64,000 bases of DNA from Carallia brachiata (taxonomy: Eukaryota; Streptophyta; Magnoliopsida; Malpighiales; Rhizophoraceae): positions 887,717 through 951,716 of the forward strand of contig JADCRB010000036.1 of NCBI GenBank assembly GCA_021464245.1, in the 5' to 3' direction. The position numbers were made by a program, and so were the translations under genes. A model generated the notes under the pieces. It worked only from the letters and a program-made list of their open reading frames with translations. It did no database searches and was not told where the DNA came from. This document shows, piece after piece, positions 1-63,563 of the stretch (the first letter of the stretch is position 1; each line of letters starts with the position of its first letter).

Positions 1-3000
1 CCAGTTGGCCTTGCTGGGATACTACCTTTGCTATCTGCTAGGTCCACATGACTTAAGTCCTTTCCTTCTGCTTCTTGCCAGCCTTTCACCATCTGGTTAA
101 GGGGCAGACTGTAATCAATGCCACAATATTCCTCAGTCTCATCGTCCAAAGGTTTCCATTTTTCAACCAGTGGGGCAAGTACACTAACAGCATGGCTCAT
201 ATCTGGCCTTTGACTGGGCTCTCTAGCCGTGCAGTGCCCTGCAAGTTCAGCAATCACAGAGATGCTCTCAAATGTTTCGTCTTTCACATCCAGTGCAGGG
301 TCAACTGCAGCCCTAAGTTTCTGCTTATCTGATTTGATATGCCAGAACCATGCAGCCAAGTATTGGCTTTCCTCTGGCCGGTCCTCATCAAGTGCCATTA
401 ACCCAGTCAATAGCTCCATTAACACAACTCCAAAACTAAAGACATCAGCCTTGGTTGTGATTTTCCCCGTCACTAAAAAATAAGCACGCAAAAGTAAGAA
501 CTACTAGCACATACATAAACGAGAATGAGAGAAGCAAAACTTGTCAGGTCAATCAGCATTGCCCATTTAAACCAAAATTGATTTGAACAGTATTTCTGTG
601 AAGTGAACACATTTTTTTTGTTACAATTGTTATGAATAATGGAAACAAAAACAGAAATGAAAAAGCAGAAATGTTAATCTTCTCATACTTCTGAAAGTTC
701 CACAAAGAGAACAAAGGTAAACAAACTTTGGAGGGTTTAAAAAGCAGAAATGTAAGGTTCAGATAAACAAGAAAAAAAAAACAGGAATATGTTGGGAAAA
801 ACAGTATATAACACAAGAATTTCAAAAGATAATGGCAGAAAACCAGAATAATGTTCATAAAGCAGTATTCTAATCACAGCCAGATACTCAATTAAAAGTC
901 AGCTACATCAGTCAATCACCACTACCTCTGATTTTGATTATATTTCTACATCAGTGAGCACATGTTAAGTTGCTGATGCCATATAGTTGACCATAGAAGA
1001 GATGGAAGACAATTGATCAAATGCTTACCAGCATACTCTGGGGCCAAGTATCCAAAAGTGCCAGCAAGCCTTGTCACCACAGATTTCTCTCCATCAGGAG
1101 CAAGTTTCACCAATCCAAAATCCGAAACTTTTGCTCTGAAATCATCACCTAGCAATATATTTGAAGATTTGAGATCTCTGTGTATGAAGCTCTGATGAGC
1201 CAGATTATGAAGATATTCCATTCCTCTTGCAACATCCAAGGCAATATTTAGCCGCCTCTTCCAAGAGAGAGGCTCCAATTTCAAGCTCTTCCAGTGGAAA
1301 AGATGCTTACTAAGAGCCCCCTGAGGCATATACTCATAAACGAGGATTCTCTCATTGCCTTCAATCGAATATCCCAAAAGGGATACCAAATGACGATGAC
1401 GGACTTTTGACAGAACTGCAATCTCTGACTGAAATTCATCCAATGCTTTGGTGCTAATCACACCAGCCTCCATTCTTTTAACTGCTATGTTTGTTCCATC
1501 ATCCAATTCTCCTTTGTACACTACCCCAAAGCCACCACGCCCAAGTTCATTTTCTGGAGCAAAATTCTTTGTCACATTGCGAAGAACCTGAACTGATATG
1601 ATCAGATTCCCTGCTTCAATGACATGAGAATCACCAATGCCACTGCCATTTATGCTCGGAGAACCACTACCTGTTACGGTAGAAGTGCCACCATTGGTGG
1701 TATTGGCAACAACTATCTTGACGACATTATCTGAGTCAGATGGATCTCTTGGATGAATTACAAGGGCATTTGGAGCCCTGAAGGCGTCATTTTTCTTCTT
1801 GTAACAGTAAATAAACAAAGGCATAACCAGAATAGCAACAACTGCAACACTTGCAACAGGCGCTAAAATTGCAACGAATGAGGACCTTTTAGGACTTCTC
1901 TGTTTGGCTGAAATTTGTGAAGACTCACCAGAACCAGAATTTCTGTCTACATTCGCTGAGGACGAGCTGTTGGGTGGAGAACCTGAAACTCCAGCTGATG
2001 GATTGTTTTTGGGAGAAGGGGCAGGATTCACTTGCTCCCCAGTACTCAAGAAAGGATTTCCTTTAGTTTCAACTTGAACATTGCTACGAAATTGTGGTAA
2101 TTGACCGGAAATATTGTTGTTACTAAGATCCAACGCTGTCAACAACGGCAAGGGGGTCCAATTTGTAGGAATTGGACCGTTTATGCTGTTGTTCTCTAGT
2201 TTAATTTGGAAAAGAGAATCTAGTTCTCCTACTGAAGGGCTCAAGGTGCCACTGAGATTATAATTTGGCAAAACAATGGAAGAAACTTTGCCTTTGGTGT
2301 CACAATGCAATCCCAGCCATGATGAACATGGATCATTACCACTCCACGAAGACACAAGTCTAGAAGGATAATTCAACCCACCAAGGAACTCAATAAGTGC
2401 CATAACTTCCGGTGCACATGCAACCCCAGGCGTGGATTGACAAAAAGCATTTGAAGTGCAAGAAACTTTAGCTGCTTTAAAATTTGGGGTTGGGCCCATC
2501 AACTGATTATTGTTCAAATCTAAATGAACTAATGTCATATTTATCAAGCTTTCAGGAACCAATCCAACAAGTTTATTACCATTAAGATTAAGATCCTTCA
2601 AGAGAGCCAAATTACCAATGCTGTCTGGAATTGTACCTGTGAACTGGTTCCCGTGAAGCCAAAGAACGGTAACCGAACTCATTGTCGCCACCACATCAAT
2701 AGTACCCGTCAACCCGCTGCCTTCCTGATTATTTAGCCACAGATTTCGCAAAGACATGCCTCCCGTAAAGCTTGCCGGAATCACACCAGATAATCTATTC
2801 CCCGAGAGTTTCAAGTTTTGTAAAGATGAGAAATTTCCTAGAAAATCAGGCAATGGACCGGCCAAATTACAAGACATACAGGAAAGATTAGTCAATTGAG
2901 GAGAGCCTAGCAACCCCTCTGGGAATGACCACCCAGTAGTAGCATTAAGATTGTTGTAATCCAGTGCCACGGCTTGCAAACTCACTAAACCATCAAAGAA

Positions 3001-3402
3001 ATCAGACGGGATAGAGTCGAATTGATTGTCATCCATGTAAGCGTAGAACAGTTTGGATAACCCACTGAGGGATGGTAAAGGTCCAGTGAATTGGTTCCGC
3101 TGAAAGCTCAATCTTTCAAGCATGGCCAGCTGGTTGAGGTTCTGAGGCAAAGTGCCCTTCAAGCTCAGATTTTGAACCTGAATCTGAGACACCCTTGAAC
3201 CAGAACAGAAAACATGTTCCCAAGATTGTCCACAAGGATCATCACCAGTGTCTGGCCACCCCAAGACCTGGGGATTCTTTAACCCATCTCTGAATGCCTT
3301 GAGAATAGCAAGGTCATTTGGGTAAGTGTCAGTGAACACCACAGCAGCAAATGAAAGGAGTGCTACAACAAGAAGAAGAAGCTTTATGGGGTGGCTTTCC
3401 AT
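1..3402 (-). CDS. TMK-type LRR receptor-like kinase, C-terminus cut by window edge
   Basis: Plasma-membrane receptor kinase of the TMK family, known from Arabidopsis for auxin-linked cell-surface signalling. Two exons are visible: 3402-1029 and 472-1, joined across a 556-bp GT-AG intron inside the kinase domain just after the APEYA motif. I start at the ATG at 3402 because a hydrophobic signal peptide (residues 1-24) follows at once; in-frame ATGs upstream add only a non-signal leader. In order: LRR N-terminal cap with DPCG, a first LRR block, a Cys-bearing island near residues 315-375, a short second LRR block, a Ser/Pro-rich stretch, one membrane span (about 509-533), then the kinase. Kinase motifs are GRGGFGVVYKG (621-631), Lys642, HRD with Asp743, and DFG with Asp761. 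The visible end reads SIPARPTG, the usual TMK tail, so only about a dozen residues are missing. No lesion seen. The exact TMK subgroup is uncertain. Confidence 0.95.
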
Positions 3403-3981
3403 GGCAGATTTTTCAAGTTTCAATTCTGCTTCATGAAGGGTTACGGAACCAAGCAAGAAAGAGAAAAGCTTCATTTTTTTAGCATCAATGCCTAGGCTTC
3501 CTGGGAACAACAATCTCTAATCTTGAACTGGAAATGATGAAAAAAAAAACACACACACACACACACACAAAAACAAAGTATTTTTAGACTACATGAACTT
3601 TACATAGAACTGTGGAAATGCTGACCACAGATGAAGAGAGAGAGAGGGAAAAAAAATTAAAAAAACAAGAAGAGAGAGAAGCTGGGAAACACCAAGAAAC
3701 CATGAAAGGTGGATCTTGGAAGAGTGGAAGAATGATGAGAAATATTCAACATCAGAAAACAAAGTTCTTTTTTACTAGTGATTGATTGGGAAAAATAACA
3801 AAAAAAAGAAGTCGAGGTGCCCGTACATTATTCGATAATTTATGTGTCACATCTGTTTTTCTGGAAATTTACCTTCGCACATGCCACGTCTGCCGATTCT
3901 CTCTTTTCTTTCGCTCTCTCTCTCTCTCTCTCTCTCTAATCTTTTTCTTAGAGCGAGGGGGAATGACGCATCGAATCTCGT
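3403..3981 (-). promoter_or_regulatory. 5' flank of the TMK-type gene with microsatellites
   Basis: This is the upstream side of the minus-strand receptor kinase. It holds an (AC)n tract at 3549-3569, GA-rich stretches at about 3634-3676, and a (CT)n tract at 3913-3938. GA/CT-rich tracts are common in plant 5' UTRs and core promoters. I could not fix a TATA box or transcription start. Confidence 0.4.
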
Positions 3982-8433: not shown

Positions 8434-9680
8434 TAGGACTCGTTTGGAGATGTTGTCAGTTTTTTATTTTCTATTTTTAATTTTTACTGTTTACTGAATT
8501 TTTGTATTTATTGTTATCAATTTTGGTTTTTTTTTCTATAAGAATAAAAAATAAATAAATAGAAAAAGGATAGTGAGAGAAATGACAAAAATAATGTAAA
8601 TATAGACACAAAAAAGGGGGGAGAGAGAGAGAGAGAGAAAGAGGGTAGAGAGAGAATGAGTAGAGAGGGAAAGGGAAAAGAAAGAGAATCAGTAGAGAGA
8701 ATGATAGAAAGAGAAAGGGTTGAGAAATAATGAGTAAACAGAATAGTAGAGAGAGAAAAATGAGAGAGAGAGGGTAAAGAGAGAATGAGTAGAGAGAATG
8801 GTAAAACAAGAAAAAAGAGAACAAGAAAAAAGAGAGAGAGTCTGGGTAGAGAGAGAATGACTAGTGAGAGAAAAAAGAGAGAGAGAGGGTAGAGTGATAA
8901 TAGTAGAATGAGAAAAATGAGAGAGAATGTGGGTAGACAGAAAGGAGAGAGAATCTGGGTAAATAAAGAATGGTAGAGAGAAAAGAGAGAGAGAGAGAGA
9001 ATGAGTAGAGAGAATGATAGAGCAAGAAAAAGAAGAGAGAATGGTAGAGAGAGAATGAGTAGAGAGAATGGTTGAGGGGGAAAAAGGAGAGAGAGAGAGA
9101 GAAAGAGCGTGGGTAGAAGGAGAATTAGTAGAGAGAATGGTAGAAAGAGAAAAAGGAGAAAGAGGGTAGAGCAAGAATGAGTAAAGAGAGAAAAGAGAGA
9201 GAGGGTAGAGAGAGAATGGTAGAGATAGAAAAATGGGAGAGAGGGTAGAGAGAGATTGATAGAGATAAAAATGAGGGTACAGAGAGAATGAGTAGAGAGC
9301 GAAATAGAGAGAGGGTAGAGAGAGAGAGAGAGATTAGAGATAGAAAAGGGAGAGAGAGAGTAGAGAGAGAATGAGTAGAGAGAGAATGAGTGTTGAGAAA
9401 AAAGATATAGAGGGATAGAGAGAGGATGAGTAAAGAGAGATATACTCAAGAGGATAGATAGAGAAAGAAAATGTTGTAAGAGAAAGTATAGAAAAAAAAG
9501 TAAAAAATAAATTCAGAAAGCTAGTTTTTTTTATTTTCTCAATTTATTTTTTTTCTTTGAAAAACGCTTTTAACTTTTCAACAAAAAACAGAAAACAAAA
9601 TTAATACCAAACATGTTTTCTTTTTTTTGTAAAAAATAAACAGAAAATAGAAAACAAAATCCATTTCAAACGGACCCATA
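8434..9680. mobile_element. Probable TIR element carrying an expanded purine array
   Basis: The ends are inverted copies: GGACTCGTTTGGAGATG at 8436 and, on the other strand at 9677, GGGTCCGTTTGAAATGG, each followed by TTTTCTATTTT-type sequence. GGNNCGTTTGG ends are frequent in plant hAT-type MITEs. The candidate 8-bp flanks (8426-8433, 9681-9688) agree at five positions. Between the arms sits a long GA-rich tandem array instead of a transposase. Confidence 0.5.
8571..9490. repeat. Degenerate GA-rich minisatellite (~0.9 kb)
   Basis: Dozens of variant units of the type GTAGAGAGAGAATGAGTAGA run without a break, with almost no C on the plus strand. Ser/Leu/Phe-rich frames on the opposite strand are by-products of the repeat and not genes. 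The strand asymmetry would favour triplex or slipped structures. Confidence 0.9.
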
Positions 9681-53394: not shown

Positions 53395-54207
53395 TGTAAA
53401 CAAAGAAAAAAAAAATGAATTCAATGAATTCGTTGAATTCAATGGTCGGCGTTGCCAATTTTGAATTGGCAACGCTGGCCAAAGAAATTTTTTTTTTAAA
53501 AGAAAAGATTCATTTTCCATGTGATGTTCACATGGGAAAAGAACCCTATAAATAGACCTCTGCCCCTCAGTTCAAAAGACATTCAGCAAATCTGTAAATA
53601 GAAAAATCTGGAGAATTTGAGAGAAAAAGAAAATTTTAAAAATCTCTCATGAAAATTTCTCCTTTTCTTACGTGCTTTTACTCTGCAGTATACTCTCCTA
53701 ACTCCTTTTTGAGAGATATTTCAGGGGTAAGTCTCAAAAAATTTGCTGTTTCCATTTCTAAAATTATTTTTAAATTTATATTCTCCGATCGCTGTAGATC
53801 TGAATTTATGAGAATATAGATCTGAAAATATCAAATTACTTCAAATCCGGCTGGGATTAACCATACGGCCCTCAGCAAAATCCAGGCAGCTCATCCGAGA
53901 ACAAGTCCCTTCGACCCTCGGTGAAATTAAGTCAGATCGGCTCAGATCAGGTCTCTGCGGTTCTAACCGTAGTCAAAACGTCCAAATCAGATCCGTTTCA
54001 GTCTACCAGTTCAAGAAAAAGCGTGGAAATTATTTCTGTCAAGATCAAGCTCGTGCAGCCCTTGACGGAGTCAAAAAAGGAACACTAATCGGAGGATCTA
54101 CGGAGATCGACCCCACGTAAATTTTCTTTTCTTTTACAATTTTTATTTGTAATTTATTTTTGTATTTTCGAGTTTAATTGTTTTAGGCTCGAAATTTACG
54201 CTTTACA
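53395..54207 (+). repeat. 5' LTR (813 bp)
   Basis: Matches the 3' LTR throughout, with a palindrome-rich head (CCATGTGATGTTCACATGG) and CCTATAAATAG at about 53544, a TATA box. It carries a 79-bp segment (53401-53479) absent from the 3' LTR. In 53850-54080 it lacks single bases in several 2-7-base homopolymers that the 3' LTR keeps. Confidence 0.97.
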
Positions 54208-54232
54208 AATTTTTGGCACGCTCGGTGGGACA
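54208..54232 (+). promoter_or_regulatory. Primer-binding-site region
   Basis: Directly after the LTR's terminal CA comes AATTTTTGGCACGCTCGGTG, where the minus-strand primer tRNA should pair. TTGGCRCGCYCGGTGGGAC-like sites occur in other plant Tat elements. I did not assign the tRNA. Confidence 0.6.
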
Positions 54233-54258
54233 TCTTCACCTCCCATCTCTTGTTCCTT

Positions 54259-54405
54259 AAAAAAAAAAAAGGTAAAAGGGGAGCCGAGAGAAAAAAAAAA
54301 GTAAAAAAAAAAAAGTAAAAAAGTAAAAAAAAAAAAAAGTAAAAAGTAAAAAGTAAAAAGTAAAAGTAAAAAAAAAAGTAAAAAGTAAAAAAAAAAAAAA
54401 AATTT
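54259..54405 (+). repeat. A-rich (AAAAAGT)n leader tract
   Basis: Runs of A separated by GT at 5-12-base spacing fill most of the leader before gag, ending TTTTACAG just before GTGTTCAGC. Confidence 0.9.
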
Positions 54406-54426
54406 TACAGGTGTTCAGCACATCAA

Positions 54427-55721
54427 ATGGCACCGAAAAGGAGTACAACTGCTGCCACAAAAAAGAAGGCAACGGCTCCATTGCCTGCATCAACTACCCT
54501 ACCTGGGTACGCAGGTCCAGAAACCCGGGGACGGACACAATTTCTTGCCGTCCAAACCCGACAAAATGTCGAAATGGAGAGTCCACAGCTCGCACAACAG
54601 GATCTCTCCCCTGACTCTCTTGCCGCATGGAGGAGTCGATCACCCACCCCGATCGAAGTCGGGGGCAACACGACGAAGCCTGCTCAACAAAATCCGACTC
54701 ACACAGAAGAATCAGAAGAGTTTTCTCCCCCAGTCTTTCCCGGAGCCTCATCTGTTGCCGTCATGATGACCAACACAACCAGCAGAGAAAGGATTTCAGA
54801 ATTGGAGAACAAAATTTTGCAGCTGATCAGAGTCGTGGAGGAAAAAGATCAACAGATCGCCGCTCTCAAAGGAAAGCCCCGATCCAAGTTGATCCCGAAA
54901 TCCGCGAGGAGCAACCATATCCACCCGGTTTCACTCCAGAAGCCACACCAGCCGACGTCTTCCTGCAGAAAAGCGACCAGGTAGTTCTACACAGCTGCCA
55001 CCCTCAAATTCTGTAGCTTCGCTATCTGTTCAACAATTGCAGGAAATGATAGCCAATACGATCCGACTGCAACAAGCTACATCCTTCCAAGGATCACAGA
55101 TGTACGTCAAACCGTACACCAGACGGATCGAAAGTCTCAACATGCCCTTGGGCTACCAGCCGCCCAAATTTCAACAATTCGACGGACGAGGCGATCCCAA
55201 ACAGCACATCGCCCACTTCGTTGAAACCTGCAACAACGCAGGGACTTATGGAGATCTCTTGGTGAAGCAGTTTGTTCGTTCACTCAGGGAGACCGCTTTC
55301 ACCTGGTTCATAAATCTTGAACCAGAATCGATCGACAGTTGGGAACAGCTACAACGAGAGTTCCTCAACAGATTTTTCAGCACTCGAAGGACGGTAAGTA
55401 TGATGGAGCTTACCAGCACCAAACAAAGGAAAGGAGAGCCCGTTGTCGAATACATCAACAGATGGCGTGCCCTCAGCTTGGACTGCAAAGATCGCCTGAC
55501 GGAGACTTCTGCCGTGGAGATGTGCATCCAGGGAATGCATTGGGAGCTGTTATACATCCTGCAGGGTGTCAAACCCCGAACTTCGAAGAACTGGCGACCC
55601 GCGCACATGATATGGAGATAAGCATCCAGACTTCCGGAGGCACGGTTCCCATCCAGTTGGACCAGCAAGGGGGCAGAAGGGAGATTAAGAAACCCAACAG
55701 CTCCGGAAAAGGAAAGAAGTG
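54427..55721 (+). pseudogene. Retrotransposon gag, frameshifted
   Basis: Starts MAPKRSTTAATKKK. A coiled-coil-like segment (ISELENKILQLIRVVEEKD) follows, then the capsid-type Gag domain at about 55140-55620 with PKFQQFDGRGDPKQHIAHF, FINLEPESIDSWEQL and TKQRKGEPVVEYINRW. The frame changes at least twice between 54860 and 55040, and again at about 55583, where one T is missing beside a TT. The coat protein function is structural (particle formation). It cannot be read as one protein in this copy. Confidence 0.9.
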
Positions 55722-57503
55722 ATGACTGTTGAAGCCGCACCAGTAAAAGTGGGCGCCAAAGCTAAGGTAAATCCTCCGACCCAAATAACTCAGCCAAAAC
55801 AACAGGAAAGGCGGAAGGTGACATTGCGAGAGTTGGAGCAGAAGCAGTATCCATTCCCCGACTCAGACGTCCCCGACATTCTTGAACAACTCTTGGAGGC
55901 GAAGCTGATCGAACTCCCAGAGTGCAAGCGGCCGAATGAAAAGGATCGAGTCAGCGATCCGAGATTCTGCAAATATCACCGGATAGTAAGTCATCCAACC
56001 GAGAATGTTTCGTCCTGAAGGAGCTAATCATGAAGCTCAAGCCAGAATAAAATCATTCTGGACCAGGAAGGCATAACCTCGCAAACCAGACCACCATCAC
56101 TTCAAAACCATCAGAAGAGTGACACACCGTAAGGAGGAGCCGCTCGACAACAAAAAGTCGACAACGGAGAAGGTATATGAAGCTCTCCAAACCCTTCTCG
56201 CTAACCCTCAGCTGTTTATAGCTTTGCAATCAACAGAAGTGTGGCAAAATCAAGTCAGCAATACTCTCCAGACCTCAGCTGAATCACAGCCATCAAATGA
56301 TTAACTCAGCGGAGCAACAGACGGACCAAAATCACGTCGGATGTTACTCTGCTATCTCATTCATTTTCAGATGAGATCTCCTGCTGGGGTCCAAACCCCA
56401 CAATCGGCCGCTGTATGTATCAGGCTATGTGAAAGAACAGAAGGTCCGACGTATTCTGATCGACGATGGCTCAGCAGTCAATATTATCCCAAAATCCACC
56501 ATAAAGGAGCTCGGCATCGGCATTGATGAATTATCAGACAGCCGCTTGATGATTCATGGCTTTAATCAAGGAGGACAGAAAGCAATTGGGATGATTCGCT
56601 TGGAGCTAACTATCGGTAATCTCACTTCTAGCACTTTTTCACGTGATTGATGCACGTACCACATATAAGATGTTGCTAGGACGACCGTGGATTCATGGAA
56701 ATGGAGTTGTGCTCTCAAGCCTGCATCAGTGCTTCAAGTACTACAATGGTGGCGTTCAAAAGGTCAATGCTGACTTAAAGCCGTTCGATGATGCTGAATC
56801 ACATTTGGCGGATGCAGTCTTCTACACCGACACAGACAATCCGGAGATCATTCCATCAAAAGCTACTTGGACTGGGGGCATCCACAAAAAGGGAAAAGCT
56901 GTCGAAGAACCTGCCAATGCTCAACCTCAGGCTCCAACAAATGAAAAGCTGCCACAGCCTGCTGAACTTCGTCCGAAGGATGTTGCATCTTCAAGCTCCA
57001 CTCCAGTCCTACGCTATGTGCCGAAGTCACGACGCTCAGAAGGTCAACCCCCTTTCTCTTATTGTATTGATCTTAAACAGGAGCAAGGTCATAGCCAACC
57101 CAAAACAAAGGAGCTGCACAACCTGAAGGAGACTTACACTCTGCCGATACCAAAGATTGAGCCGGTTTTATCTTCAAAACCATTAAAAGGCTTCGTCAAA
57201 CCACACACGGGGGCAGTCGAAGGCGGCTCACTTCCAGAAAGAAGAACACATGAAGGATTTGATCCTAATGCATACAAGCTTTTGGCAAAGGCAGGCTATG
57301 ACTTCTCAAACCCGAGCACAATGGGTACGCTGCCGTCCACACATGGCGCCGCTTCTCAAACATCACAGTCCCGACCTGGCTTAGGCTATCAGGAGAAGTC
57401 ACCTGTGCGGATCACGCTAAAGAGCCGAAGCCGAGCAGCTGATGCACGTGCCATCAACCACCACCAAACAAGACAGGCTTATCCAGTCAAACAAAGAAGG
57501 TGA
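55722..57503 (+). pseudogene. Gag tail, aspartic protease and linker, frameshifted
   Basis: A Cys/His-containing gag tail (FCKYHRIVSH) ends at a one-base loss near 56006. The protease active-site motif ILIDDGSAVNI is at about 56449-56481, followed by a frameshift near 56635. Then comes the conserved YKMLLGRPWIH block and a long hydrophilic linker with EGFDPNAYKLLAKAGYD and RPGLGYQ, typical of Tat-lineage elements. The protease would cleave Gag-Pol during maturation. Confidence 0.85.
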
Positions 57504-58560
57504 AGTCAGAGGTTCTGCATTTCATGTCACAATTAGCGAGGAGGCTGATTCCGACTCATCAGATGGTGAAGTGAAGGAGGCTCCCCCGGAACTTGAAGAT
57601 GGTGGCCAAGCAACTGTTGATGAACTCAAGGAGGTCAATCTTGGCTCTCCGGAAGATCCTCGACCTACATTTGTAAGTGCTTTACTTACTGCAGAAGAAG
57701 AGCAAGAATATGTTCAGGTATTAAGTCAATACAGGGACGTGTTCGCATGGAGTTACAAAGAAATGCCTGGACTTGACCCAAAAATTGCGGTGCATCGTCT
57801 AGCAGTAAAGAAGGGTGTTCGTTCTGTCAAGCAGCCACAACGACGGTTCCGCCCGGAACTCATTCCACAAATCGAGGAGGAGGTGAACAAGCTGATCAAT
57901 GCTGGCTTCATCCGAGAGGTCACCTACCCAACGTGGATTGCCAACATTGTCCCGGTAAGAAAGAAGAATGGACAGTTGAGGGTATGTGTTGATTTTCGAG
58001 ATCTTAACAGGCCTGCCCGAAAGATGACTTTCCGTTGCCCATAACGGAGATCACAGTCGATGCAACAACGGGTCACGAAGCATTGTCCTTCATGGATGGT
58101 TCTTCAGGCTATAACCAAATCAGAATGGCACCAGAAGACGAGGAGTTGACAGCATTCCGCACCCCAAAAGGTATATACTGCTACAAAGTTATGCCGTTTG
58201 GATTGAAAAATGCTGGCGCCACTTATCAACGTGCTATGCAAAAAATTTTTGATGACATGCTGCACAAGATTGTAGAATGTTATGTTGATGACTTAGTTGT
58301 AAAGACTAAGAAGCGCAAAGACCACCTCGAGGATCTCAAGACAGTGTTCGAAAGACTTCGGAGGCATCAGCTCAAAATGAACCCTCTCAAGTGCGCATTC
58401 GGTGTCACATCAGGAAAGTTTCTTGGGTTCGTGGTGCGCCATCGTGGAATCGAAGTTGATCAGTCAAAGGTTGAGGCAATTCAAAAGATGCCTGAACCTA
58501 AAAACCTGCACGAGCTGCGAAGTCTACAAGGAAAGCTGGCCTACATTCGCCGTTTTCTCC
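57504..58560 (+). pseudogene. Reverse transcriptase domain, frameshifted
   Basis: The upstream region has VLSQYRDVFAWSYKEMPGLD. RT motifs are present: RRFRPELIPQIEEEVNKL, IVPVRKKNGQLRVCVDFRD, FMDGSSGYNQI, VMPFGLKNAGATYQRAM, and the catalytic YVDD at 58281-58292. One base is missing in a G run near 58011, splitting the domain into two frames. RT copies the element RNA into cDNA. Confidence 0.93.
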
Positions 58561-59575
58561 AATTTAGCTGGGAGATGTCAACCTTTCCATCGGTTGATGA
58601 AGAAGGATGTCAACTTCGAGTGGGACGAAGCTTGCAGCAAAGCCTTTGAGAGCATAAAGAAGTACCTTTCCAATCCACCGTCCTGGGAGCTCCAATTCAA
58701 GGAAAGTCGTTGATTCTCTACATTGCAGCGCAGGAAAGATCTTTGGGAGCCTTGCTTGCACAGGAAAACGAGCAGGGAAAGGAAGTTGCCCTGTACTACT
58801 TGAGCAGAACACTAAACGGTCCGGAGCTGAGTTATTCGCCCATTGAAAAGACATGTCTAGCACTGTTCTTTGCCATTGACAAGCTGAGGCACTACATGCA
58901 AGCTCACACGGTACGTCTCATTGCCAGAGCTGATCCTGTCAAATATATCTTATCTAGACCAATCTTGTCAGGACGACTTGCCAAGTGGGCAGTAATCCTA
59001 CAAAGCTACGACATTGTCTACGTGCCTCAAAAAGCAGTCAAAGGACAAGCTCTAGCAGACTTCCTTGCAGATCACCCTGTTCCGTCAGATTGGGAGTTCA
59101 CAGATGATCTTCCAGATGAAGAGGTCTTTTACATTGAGACACTGCCACCATGGACGATGTTCTTTGATGGTGCAGCAAGGCGTGATGGTGCTGGTGCCGG
59201 CATAGTGTTTGTCACTCCTCAACGACAAATACTACCATATGCTATCATTCTCGGTGAGTTATGTTCAAATAATGTTGCTGAATACCAGGCTTTGATCATT
59301 GGTCTTCAAATGGCTGTCGATATGAAGATTCCAACTATAGAAGTCCATGGAGATTCCCAGCTCGTCATCAACCAACTTACAGGATTGTATGATGAAGAAA
59401 GAGGACCTTGCGCCTTACCATCAACGTGCTCGACAGCTAATGGATGAATTTGAAAGCATCACCTTGGAGCATGTGCCTCGACGAGAAAACACTCAGGCAG
59501 ACGCGTTGGCTAACCTGGCCACTTTCTTGCAAAGTCAGAAATCCAGGCTACAGTTGTTGCCGTATGCCAGAAATG
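58561..59575 (+). pseudogene. RNase H and second (archaeal-type) RNase H, frameshifted
   Basis: The classical RT-linked RNase H has SLGALLAQENEQGKEVALYY, SYSPIEKTCLAL and GRLAKWAVILQSYDI. The second RNase H begins FFDGAARRDGAGAGIVFV at about 59160 and continues LCSNNVAEYQALIIGL and DSQLVINQL, then NTQADALANLA. A paired RNase H is a hallmark of the Tat branch. Frame breaks lie near 58556 (two bases), 58680 (one), 59391 (two) and 59533 (one). Confidence 0.92.
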
Positions 59576-60885
59576 GATAGTGCCACAGAAGGATGATGAA
59601 GAAACTACACTACAGCAGCTGTATCTTATACGTCTCGCGGAGGACGAGGATTGGCGCCAACCAATCATTGACTACTACAGCACGGGAAGCTGCCCGAAGA
59701 TCGTCGTCATAAGACAGAAATTCAACGACGAGCTCCCCGCTTCATATATCTCAAGGATGCTCTGTATCGAAGGTCTTTTGATGGAGTTTTACTTCGCTGC
59801 CTAGCAATGAAGAGGCAAAACAGCTCTCACTGAAGCACATTCTGGTGTTTGTGGCGGACATCAATCGGGCCTAAGTTGCACTTCCAACTCAGAAGGATGG
59901 GATACTACTGGCCAACCATGGTACGTGATTCAATTGAGTTTGCTAAAACTGTCAAGCTTGTCAATTTCATGCGAATTACATACATCAACCACCGGAGCCA
60001 CTGCATCCAACTGTCTCATCCTGGCCCTTTGAAGCTTGGGGTCTCGACTTAGTGGGGCCCTTGCCAAAGTCATCCCTGGTCACCTGTACATCCTCGCAGC
60101 AACCGACTACTTCTCAAAATGGGCTGAAGCCATTCCACTTAGAGAGGTAAAGAAGGAGCATGTTGCCAATTTCATCCGGACTCAGCTGATCTATCGCTAT
60201 GGAGTCCCTCGATTCATCATCACTGATAATGGTAAGCAGTTCTACAACAGCTTAATCGACAAGCTCTGCGAGAAGTTCAAGTTCAAGCAGTACAAGTCAT
60301 CCATGTACAATGCCCCAGCAAATGGCTTGGCCGAAGCATTCAACAAGACCTTATGCAACCTGTTGCGGAAGGTAGTCTCTAAATCCAAAAGAGATTGGCA
60401 TGACAGAATTCCGGAGGCATTATGGGCGTATCGTACAACTTACCGGACTCCAACACAGGCGACGCCATACTCACTTGTCTACGGTGTCGAAGCAATACTG
60501 CCGTTGGAAACACAGATTCCATCTGCGCATGGCTGTTCTGGAAGGACTCACACAGGAGGAGAATGCTCGCCTACGTCTGGATGAGTTAGAAGCCCTCGAT
60601 GAAAGGAGGCTCGAAGCACAACAGCAACTTGAGTGCTACCAAGCCCGGCTCACCAACACGTTCAACCGCAGGGTCCGCCTCGATCTTTTCAAGTTGGAGA
60701 CCTTGTTCTTAGTGCGACGGCCCATCAACATGAAGCATCGGCCTGGTGACAAGCTTACTTCCAAATGGGACGGGCCATACTTAGTGCAGGAGGCCTACAC
60801 TCACAACGCTTACATGCTGTCAGACCAAGAAGGCGTCCGAATCGGCCCAATCAATAGTAAATTTCTGAAACAGTATTATGTGTAA
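59576..60885 (+). pseudogene. Integrase, frameshifted
   Basis: Contains remnants of the zinc-binding N-terminus, the catalytic core with DDE context (ATDYFSKWAEA, FIITDNGKQF, NGLAEAFNKT) and a C-terminal part ending GPINSKFLKQYYV. Breaks are near 59675, 59810, 59818, 59871, 59948, 60078, 60523 (two bases), 60678 and 60710. I saw no in-frame nonsense substitution when following the local frames. Integrase inserts the cDNA and produces the 5-bp target duplication seen at the ends. Confidence 0.92.
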
Positions 60886-61195
60886 ATATGTTTAAAAAAA
60901 ATCAAAAAAATAAAAAAAAATAGAAAAAATAAAAAAAAAATCAAAAATCAAAAATCGAAAAAAAAAAAAAATTGCTAAGTCCCGATCTGAAAGACCAAGC
61001 GAAAATCCAAACCCAAACACTTGAGCCCAATTCAGAGTCCAACTCAAAAGCCTGAAAACCAAATCCAAAAACCCAAGTTTAGAAGCCCAAACACTCGACC
61101 CAAATCCAAAAATCCAATTCCAAAACTCAAACACTCGACCCAAAATCCAATCCAACTCCTGGCCCGCATGAGTATAAACTTGAACGGCCCAAAAA
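60886..61195 (+). repeat. A-rich tract and degenerate CCAAAYCC repeats between integrase and homeobox frame
   Basis: 60893-60972 is A-rich with TC interruptions, echoing the leader tract. 60985-61160 is built of variants of AATCCAAACCCAAACACTCGA. It has no coding capacity on the plus strand and separates pol from the homeobox frame. Confidence 0.8.
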
Positions 61196-61203
61196 TATAA
61201 AAG
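61196..61203 (+). promoter_or_regulatory. TATA box upstream of the WOX frame
   Basis: TATAAAAG lies 89 bp before the ATG at 61292, leaving room for a start site and a ~60-base leader. It suggests an internal promoter separate from the LTR. Confidence 0.5.
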
Positions 61204-61291
61204 CAACGGAGGGTTTGAGTCTGAAACTCAGCATCAGTCTCAACCGATCTTCACCACATACCAAGACCTTTGCTCCTTTGCCACAAGAAAG

Positions 61292-61903
61292 ATGGAACCA
61301 GTTGCAGAACCTCAAGACAAGGGAGAAGAAAGGTCACCCCGCACAAGGTGGCAACCGACCATGGCACAACTGCAAATTTTAGAGGAAGTCTTCCACAACA
61401 ATGGAGGTATTATTCCTAATGCATCTCAAATTTACCAACTTGTCTCACGATTGCGCCCGCTCGGGGCAATCGAAGGAAAAAATGTGTTTTATTGGTTCCA
61501 GAATCGGAGAAGCAGAAAGAAACCAGCACTCAGAACTGCTTCTTCCAAAGAACAGTCTGTCGTTCCGATAGTAAATCCCACTGGTACAGCTTCGCCCTCA
61601 AATGAAGCAGGTCCGAGTTCTTCCACTGCAATGGTCTCTCCACGGTATCTTCATCAAAGTCGTAGCCCATGGGAGAATGCATGCTGGTCCTGGTGGTCTT
61701 ACGGAGTCAGCCAAGGGTTCATCCCTCTTAGATACTTAAGTCTAGTAGGAATTTTTCTAGCAGAAAGGAGTCATTCCGGCGAAATTTTGCCTCTCTTTCA
61801 AGAATATTCCGGCAGCATCAACCAGCCGGAAAACAACGTCAACATCATCGGCCCACCAGACGAGGCCGAGCTTGACTTGGAGCTGCGCCTTGGGCCCCGC
61901 TAG
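61292..61903 (+). CDS. WUSCHEL-related homeobox (WOX) protein inside the retrotransposon
   Basis: An uninterrupted 203-residue protein with no intron. Residues 17-78 form a WOX-type homeodomain: RTRWQPT at the start, FHNNGGIIPNASQI, and a recognition helix GKNVFYWFQNRRSRKK. GKNVFYWFQN is characteristic of WOX proteins, and the spacing after NN matches the WUS clade. Residues 164-171 (EILPLFQE) resemble the WUS box, and LDLELRL at 194-200 is an EAR-like repression motif near the end. All three landmarks of the modern WOX clade are therefore present in order. Host WOX genes usually have an intron within or near the homeodomain, so its absence suggests capture from spliced RNA. Host WOX proteins are nuclear regulators of stem cells and organ initiation. 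Whether this copy is expressed is unknown. Confidence 0.9.
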   Translation: MEPVAEPQDKGEERSPRTRWQPTMAQLQILEEVFHNNGGIIPNASQIYQLVSRLRPLGAIEGKNVFYWFQNRRSRKKPALRTASSKEQSVVPIVNPTGTASPSNEAGPSSSTAMVSPRYLHQSRSPWENACWSWWSYGVSQGFIPLRYLSLVGIFLAERSHSGEILPLFQEYSGSINQPENNVNIIGPPDEAELDLELRLGPR

Positions 61904-62804
61904 GACGACCGACAAGATAAGGTGCAACGACTTCTGCAACACACGGCAACGGCTTTCGTGACACGCGTCAGCCGCTGTCTCTTTTGTCTCTTATACAGGA
62001 AAGGGACGTGGATGACCCTGCTCGATTCTGCGTACCTTCTTTTTGACTTTTTAAAAAAAAAAAGTTAAAAAAAAAATCTTTATCATATGTATATATATCT
62101 TGCATTCCCGAGTTGCAATACTCACCCCTCAGCTCTTCTTTCTCAAAAGAAAATGGTTAGTCTCTGTACTTGTCTCAGGAAGTTCTTTGACCAAGAAGTT
62201 GGAGGCGCACGAGTTAAGAAAAGAAGGAGTAGTCTTTCTCGATGGATCCTTAGAAACCCTCGAAACTCATTCTCCAACGCCATCGGTGTCATGGAGTTCC
62301 AACTACTCTCCTTAGTTCACATCTATCGCAGCGAGCCGAGAAGTTCTGATCGTCCTCATGGATCTACAAATGCAGCAACGTGCAGGGAAGTTCCAACTAC
62401 TCTCCTTATGTCGAAGCAGATTCGGGAATCATCACCATAACCCGTCTCTCTGTGCGCAGGTCTTAAAGTTTCAAAGTACTGGGTCTTCCTCTTGGGGAGG
62501 TTCAAGTTCTTTGCCTACCGGATCATCCTCACCAGAGCTCTGGAACTTTAAGACATATAAAAAATCCTTTGCGGGCTATGGAAGCTCGAACGCACCTGGA
62601 GCCAGAATGTCAATTTTTATATTGGCTGAGCTGCTAACTTTCTCAAGATTGTATCGGGTTCCTATTGCGATCCAACAACAGCAGGCATGGTCAAAGATAG
62701 AAAACTCCAAGATTCAATATTCATCAGGACGTTTCCAAGTTTCAAACTGGACTTCAAGACTCGGTTCGAATCATCTCTGTAAAATTCTTTCTTACCGACC
62801 CTTG
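61904..62804 (+). other. Spacer between WOX frame and 3' LTR
   Basis: Probably the 3' untranslated part of the captured unit plus element spacer. The block GTTCCAACTACTCTCCTTA occurs twice, at about 62296 and 62390. Two overlapping frames (62087-62440 and 62358-62822) are open but match nothing I know; the second has a Ser/Gly-rich stretch, STGSSSWGGSSSLPTGSSS. A function is not supported. Confidence 0.4.
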
Positions 62805-62817
62805 AAGTGGGGGCATT
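62805..62817 (+). promoter_or_regulatory. Polypurine tract
   Basis: AAGTGGGGGCATT directly precedes the TG of the 3' LTR, the position where plus-strand DNA synthesis is primed. Confidence 0.75.
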
Positions 62818-63563
62818 TGTAAACAAGGAAATTTTTTTTTTTAAAAGAAAAGATTCCTTTCCCATGTGATGTTCACATGGGAAAGGAACCCTATAAATAG
62901 GCCCCTGCCTCTCAGTTCAAAAGACATTCAGCAAATCTGTAAACAGAAAAATCCAGAGAATTTGAGAGAAAAAGAAAATTTTAAAAATCTTTCAAGAAAA
63001 TTTCTTTTTTTCTTACGTGCTTTTATACTCTGCAGTATACTCTCCTAACTCCTTTTTTAGAGATATTTCAGGGGTAAGTCTCAAAAAATTTGTTGTTTCT
63101 ATTTCTAAAGTTATTTTTAAATTTATATTCTCCGATCGCTGTAGATCTGAATTTATGAGAATATAGATCTGAAAATATCAAATTACTTCAAATCCGGCTG
63201 GGATTAAACCTCATACGGCCCTCAGCAAAATCCAGGCAGCTCATCCGAGAACAAGTCCCTTCGACCCTCAGTGAAATTAAGTCAGATCGGCTCAGATCAG
63301 GTCTCTGCGGTTCTTAACCGTAGTCAAAACGTCCAAATCAGATCCGGTTTCAGTCTACCCAGTTCAAGAAAAAGCGGTGGAAATTATTTCTGTCAAGATC
63401 AAACTCGTGCAGCCCTTGACGGAGTCAAAAAAAGGAACACTAATCGGAGGATCTACGGAGATCGACCCCACGTAAATTTTCTTTTCTTTTACAATTTTTA
63501 TTTGTAATTTATTTTTTATATTTTTTAGTTTAATTATTTTAAACTCGAAATTTACGCTTTACA
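62818..63563 (+). repeat. 3' LTR (746 bp)
   Basis: Begins TGTAAACAAGGAAA and ends GCTTTACA. Collinear with the 5' LTR apart from the 79-bp segment missing here, about 20 substitutions and several one-base length differences. The TATA motif CCTATAAATAG is kept at about 62890. Confidence 0.97.

Follow-up and report, generated by a model that had tools for sequence, protein, structure and literature searches.

Does the WUSCHEL-type homeobox (WOX) frame that lies inside a retrotransposon of Carallia brachiata belong to that element as one of its own genes, and if so, what might it do there? The 203-codon frame opens on the plus strand of the window (the whole stretch of 64,000 nucleotides that was analysed) with an ATG at 61292, and its stop codon ends at 61903. 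The surrounding retrotransposon, which has two LTRs, spans 53480-63563. A sequence-only reading of this stretch had placed a WOX frame with a homeodomain, a WUS-box-like motif and an EAR-like tail between integrase and the 3' LTR. Pfam, PDB and alignment results bear this out: integrase is encoded upstream of the WOX frame and on the same strand.

The Pfam Homeodomain profile matches residues 17-77 of the cargo protein with an E-value of 3.3e-12, and a sequence search of the PDB yielded two matches, the WUSCHEL homeodomain (6ry3, E 5.1e-18) and STENOFOLIA (6wig, E 1.2e-15). A single-sequence AlphaFold2 model of the cargo had a mean pLDDT of 56.5, with residues 21-70 in blocks at 81-93 and the remainder of low confidence; the best structural match of its homeodomain part was the WUS homeodomain on TGAA DNA (6ryd, E 2.3e-4). 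Together with the tree described below, these matches identify the homeodomain as WUS-type. According to the structural account in PMC7203112, WUS reads bases through R38, Q89, N90 and R94, and W39 docks the arm. By alignment these residues correspond to R19, Q70, N71, R75 and W20 of the cargo, which are invariant in 14/14 aligned cargo copies and in both cargo types (see below). The homeodomain loop is one residue longer in the cargo, in the WUS rows of the alignment and in one WOX2 row. In the recognition helix, the cargo has NRRSR or NRRHR where the modern WOX proteins of the host have NHKAR. Towards the C-terminus, the WUS-box-like motif appears among the 14 aligned copies as TLPLFP or ILPLFP (seven copies), ILPLFQ (five) or other forms (two), the host WUS motif being ETLPLFPIH, and the tail carries LELRL or LELHL in the majority of aligned rows.

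Features of the element and of its WOX cargo (window coordinates)
Feature	Position	Strand	Evidence
5' LTR	about 53480..54207	+	terminal TGTAAACA absent here; end GCTTTACA at 54207 read from sequence
gag	55037..55618	+	Retrotrans_gag PF03732, E 2.1e-15
protease remnant, weak	56429..56647	+	Asp_protease_2, E 0.0063, under the Pfam cut-off
reverse transcriptase	58035..58646	+	RVT_1, E 3.9e-31
dual RNase H, Tat-type	58710..59444	+	RT_RNaseH, E 6.6e-23 (residues 1-100), then RVT_3, E 7.8e-12 (residues 152-228)
integrase core	60036..60581	+	rve, E 6.9e-10
integrase C-terminal part, different frame, as far as the pol stop	60400..60882	+	weak SH3_Tf2-1; 150 related places
conserved cargo leader	61132..61291	+	TATA-like TATAAAAG at 61196-61203
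WOX cargo gene, 203 aa	61292..61903	+	ORF, Pfam, genome copies
homeodomain	61340..61522	+	Pfam residues 17-77; R19, Q70, N71, R75 match the WUS base-reading residues
WUS-box-like motif ILPLFQ	61784..61801 (residues 165-170)	+	alignment of 14 copies
EAR-like LDLELRL	61871..61891 (residues 194-200)	+	alignment of copies
3' LTR	about 62818..63563	+	GTGGGGGCATT immediately before; ends read from sequence

Angiosperm Tat elements such as Ogre and Retand are described as carrying a second RNase H (aRH) between RNase H and integrase (PMC6317226). The window element has this arrangement, with RT_RNaseH followed by RVT_3, taken as a stand-in for aRH, and rve downstream; its integrase end is of the chromodomain-less kind, as 60400-60882 gives just a weak SH3_Tf2-1 match. 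Judged by these domains, the element is a Tat-type Ty3/gypsy retrotransposon. The Retand lineage does not fit. Its elements are reported to carry an antisense TRP28 ORF (PF04195) and to have 2.9-6.6 kb between pol and the 3' LTR (PMC11963269); in the window, PF04195 matched none of three short antisense ORFs, and the corresponding region, about 1.9 kb, falls outside that range. Elsewhere in the window, a kinase frame at 949-3405 (minus strand) is closest to two proteins of Rhizophora mucronata (87% and 84%) and then to Erythroxylum (75%), as would suit a host within the Rhizophoraceae but distinct from R. mucronata. A long open frame at 8517-9449 (minus strand), repetitive and rich in Ser, Leu and Phe, is probably repeat sequence and not a gene.

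Searches of the host genome (337.5 Mb) revealed at least 150 near-full-length copies of the cargo. The best 150 of 2294 first-look candidates were scored, and all of them match nearly the whole cargo protein at 86-100% identity (E <= 5e-113); by our own count of the table, 108 of the 150 rows contain no internal stop. For 20 of the scored loci the 5' parts were retrieved as well. Integrase lies upstream in 19 of these (the match being short or weak in L013 and L022), and 15 are enclosed by an LTR pair. With the best-matching pair of candidate LTR ends taken for each locus, target-site duplications agree in 5/5 letters at eight of the 15 LTR-paired copies and in 4/5 at three; three have none and one was not assessable. 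The window copy, the 5' LTR start of which is missing, was left out of this scoring.

We also searched with the integrase end, independently of the cargo, and scored the best 150 of 1672 candidates. By coordinates against 223 listed cargo places, the cargo follows within about 2.5 kb downstream at 51 of these 150 loci. Ten loci were sampled from the remaining 99, at intervals along the first 70 entries, and all ten carry the cargo at an identical position downstream of integrase. The family therefore carries the cargo as a rule. The same frame recurs between pol and LTR in independent, LTR-bounded insertions, which the sequence-only reading had named as proof of element cargo, and the WOX frame is confirmed as a regular gene of the retrotransposon family.

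A second cargo type was found in six of the 10 integrase-selected copies, open in L069, L073 and L074 and broken in L066, L070 and L075. Its homeodomain block has NRRHRETV where the first type has NRRSRKKP, and at the backbone-contact residue Y67 is replaced by F. A comparison of the window copy with L073 showed that the two are close at codons 1-34 (pS 0.094) and 171-203 (pS 0.044) and differ strongly at codons 35-84 (pS 0.389, pN 0.193); codons 85-130 gave pS 0.258 and pN 0.097, and codons 131-170 contain eight amino-acid changes and no synonymous one. Because high synonymous divergence is concentrated in one block, the pattern points to recombinational exchange.

The cargo is preceded by a conserved leader. 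Pairwise divergence among 17 copies is 1.7-4.6% over the 40-column blocks nearest the ATG, four in number, and 7.2-24.8% over the ten blocks beyond them, and the TATA-like TATAAAAG, 88 bp upstream of the ATG, is kept in 19 of 21 copies. Given this conservation, the simplest reading is that the cargo has a putative promoter of its own. The U3 regions of the LTRs, which contain palindromes or repeats, fall into three or more types. In the 3' LTR of the window, a core-promoter palindrome with 15-bp arms, TCCTTTCCCATGTGA-TGT-TCACATGGGAAAGGA, lies at 62855-62887, shortly before CTATAAATA. This window-type palindrome is perfect, contains TGAT and TTCA, lies just upstream of the TATA box and gives a fold z-score of -8.05. 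In other copies its place is taken by CTTTCACACG repeats in tandem or by hairpins unrelated to it; in the 3' LTR of L009 the palindrome is excised and TTCCTTAAGGAA is left, as if it had been lost via a hairpin.

Substitutions between the 5' and 3' LTRs amount to 3.81% in the window element and range from 0.64 to 6.02% over 16 pairs (the window and 15 loci; L027, which matched elsewhere, was omitted, L021 was counted once, and L020 and L024 pair different U3 types). Since the U3 types of the two LTRs differ at L020/L040 and at L024/L044, L020 and L024 could each be a recombinant or combine pieces of two elements. Dating in years from LTR divergence was abandoned because pol is far more alike than the LTRs: 12 copies differ by 0.86% in pol (L009-L028, oriented 1-2450) and by 8.2% in their LTRs, a mismatch that could stem from recombination, gene conversion or repeat polishing.

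These LTR features bear on the possibility that the cargo works within the element, binding its own LTR and setting the timing of element transcription. The retained base-reading residues of WUS would suit such a role, as would the window-type palindrome before the TATA box and the TGAATTCA arrays in the LTRs of other copies. WUS is reported to prefer TGAA sites (PMC7203112). However, TGAA/TTCA exceeded dinucleotide shuffles at P <= 0.01 in just two of 17 LTRs (four of 21 were not countable), and the five type C LTRs hold at most one such site each. Because enrichment is confined to two LTRs, we retain self-regulation only as a rival to the reading preferred below, and an unlikely one.

The sequence-only reading had further set an intact WOX frame against a shattered gag-pol. 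The gag-pol frames of the window are indeed broken, but the contrast fails as functional evidence because cargo-selected copies are intact by the choice of sample, and the cargo frame is open in only three and broken in seven of the 10 integrase-selected copies. The contrast reflects ascertainment, probably with assembly indels in addition. Five young copies that are nearly identical have frame-breaking indels at similar rates in pol, in the spacers and in the LTR (3.1-4.2 per kb); the cargo of these copies, which were picked by it, contains none and presents one common open frame. Since indels outnumber substitutions in the pol of young near-identical copies (4.41 versus 3.50 per kb), we infer that many indels are assembly errors.

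The dN/dS comparison suggested earlier was run as pN/pS and gave values below 1 for the homeodomain in both samples. Among 17 distinct cargo-selected sequences, a sample biased to conserved proteins, pN/pS was 0.427 overall (CI 0.284-0.656), 0.160 in the homeodomain (CI 0.063-0.380) and 0.614 outside it (CI 0.387-1.027). The 10 integrase-selected copies, which show no in-frame stops after removal of gapped codons, yielded 0.546 overall (CI 0.358-0.887) and 0.416 in the homeodomain (CI 0.227-0.726); frame-shifted homeodomain controls from the same sample gave 0.571 and 1.789. The value for pol was 0.126 (14 copies). Collectively, these data moderately support purifying selection on the homeodomain, weaker than that on pol and with one control close.

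The same numbers have to be weighed for a neutral passenger, captured once and copied along inside the element without being of use to it. The seven broken frames, the overall ratio of the integrase-selected copies, the out-of-frame control at 0.571 and the ratio outside the homeodomain, the interval of which extends beyond 1, are what such a passenger could produce. Against this stand the presence of the cargo in all ten sampled copies, in two homeodomain types and with C-terminal motifs kept, the homeodomain ratios, the conserved leader and the common open frame of the five young copies, even though these were picked by it. On balance, we regard a useless passenger as improbable, and selective retention by the element as the better reading.

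Homeodomain trees that combine 14 host WOX exons with proteins from databases place the cargo in a single clade (support 100/95) on the modern-WOX side (95/87, and 93/87 in another tree). The 65 alignment columns and the long branch limit finer placement: the cargo is not recovered inside the WUS subclade, and placement tests rejected a grouping neither with WUS (p-AU 0.33) nor with the intermediate clade (p-AU 0.131). The cargo branch measures 1.0-1.2 changes per site, and the capture is therefore old or the cargo has evolved fast. Homeodomain identity to the 14 host WOX exons found is 40-53%; by plain identity the nearest is a WOX3-like exon (35/66), followed by WUSa, a WUS exon (33/65), the paralogue names being our own assignment. 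A recent host source was rejected on account of this low best identity among the exons found. That the frame is a nested insertion of its own, or a misassembly of a host WOX locus, is scarcely conceivable: the genome does contain host WOX genes, but the low homeodomain identity to the 14 exons, the constant cargo position in 10/10 sampled elements and the target duplications outside the LTRs speak against it.

The host has two WUS genes (G000:C90:2365750 and C65:260930), and its WOX1-, WOX4-, WOX11- and WOX13-like exons are paired, as after genome duplication. In both WUS genes the homeodomain and the WUS-box match as separate pieces with stops between them. The cargo joins the two in a single uninterrupted frame, so that the absence of introns pointed out in the sequence-only reading holds and the cargo fits a spliced source. 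This source was probably a spliced modern-clade WOX of WUS-like type. In the protein database, none of 24 matches (142 candidates) covers the whole cargo, and the named ones are mostly plant WUS or WOX proteins; as transposon genes are often omitted there, this does not confine the cargo to the present host. Of 56 pattern matches in viral contigs, none was a relative.

Taken together, we consider it likely that this gene of a Tat-clade Ty3/gypsy family was captured from a spliced WOX and has been kept as an extra element gene with a putative stem-cell role. The element would long ago have taken up, between pol and the 3' LTR, a spliced WOX transcript of the modern clade, probably a WUS-like one, and carried it ever since as its own extra gene. 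As far as motifs and conservation allow a prediction, the cargo would be transcribed separately, probably from the conserved leader, and its product would be a nuclear DNA-binding co-repressor of the WUS type. Its most likely role would be either to shift cells harbouring the element towards a stem-cell-like state or to act, in the shoot stem-cell lineage, on promoters of the element or of the host. Either way, new insertions would reach the germ line. Counting against this explanation are the moderate pN/pS of the integrase-selected copies, the close control and the small number of open frames, much of which assembly indels may explain, as well as NRRSR/NRRHR in place of NHKAR, the change of Y67 to F in the second type, the WOX3-like identity of the nearest host exon, the three of 15 LTR-paired loci without a target duplication, the two loci with LTRs of different U3 types and the scarcity of LTRs enriched in TGAA.

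WUS acts in the stem cells of the shoot, and it is from these that the germ cells of plants derive. A retrotransposon with a WUS-type gene among its permanent components would offer a direct approach to how elements reach the next generation. A bolder version, which we put forward tentatively and hold to be rather doubtful, is that the family keeps the regulator under selection for access to the germ line via the meristem, and that its lineages compete by swapping homeodomain blocks and with them DNA targets. If this were true, the present family and the Vigna case discussed below would point to a recurrent strategy of plant retroelements. Mobile copies of a gene for a developmental regulator number well above one hundred in this one genome, and transposons may inflate the number of WOX genes that annotations of plant genomes report. 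The interest of the system is high because the function of the cargo can be tested directly.

With WUSCHEL itself the cargo shares the homeodomain with its one-residue longer loop, the base-reading residues, the WUS-box and the EAR-like tail. It differs in that only 33/65 homeodomain residues are identical to host WUSa, in its NRRSR/NRRHR helix, and in being a 203-residue, intronless and multi-copy gene. Animal retroviruses transduce oncogenes by copying a spliced host regulator into an LTR element. Both cases place a spliced host regulator inside such an element; however, oncogene transduction is a one-off replacement, whereas the WOX cargo is shared across a whole family, in an element that retains its pol domains.

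The second RNase H and an extra ORF between pol and the 3' LTR are common to Ogre, Retand and the present family (PMC6317226, PMC11963269). The extra-ORF domains named in these accounts are the plant mobile domain, Transposase_28, Athila ORF-1 and a few others, whereas here it is a WOX; Retand ORFs are described as mostly antisense in their longer pol-3'LTR region (PMC11963269), unlike the sense cargo found here. Closer in kind are the Ogre-like elements of orchids, reported to have captured an ORF for a 2-ODD (m6A demethylase), and elements of Citrus in which the ORF is YgdH (LONELY GUY-type) (PMC9289625). These are likewise Ty3/gypsy families that retain a host-type gene as an extra ORF, but their cargoes are enzymes and not a homeodomain factor. 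The same screen of 121 angiosperm genomes lists 2-ODD, YgdH, B3 and other domains, and its main text does not contain "homeo" (PMC9289625).

The sequence-only reading knew of no described plant family with such cargo. This has to be corrected: a literature search for WOX-carrying plant retrotransposons returned a single precedent, a 2023 meeting report of LTR-flanked WOX amplification in coastal Vigna (Naito, PMC10714607). According to this brief account, Vigna marina and V. riukiuensis contain many WOX copies, more than 1000 in V. riukiuensis, mostly between identical LTRs and with target duplications. By description, the multiple WOX copies, the LTRs and the target-site duplications are features common to both systems. 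The Vigna hosts are legumes, and the report does not say which element lineage or WOX clade is involved or where the cargo lies, nor does it give a test for selection. What is new relative to Vigna is the second plant order, the element lineage, the family-wide retention, the second, mosaic homeodomain type and the conserved TATA-containing leader. A captured WOX is thus a family-wide component of an element that is Tat-type by its domains, with one brief precedent in legumes.
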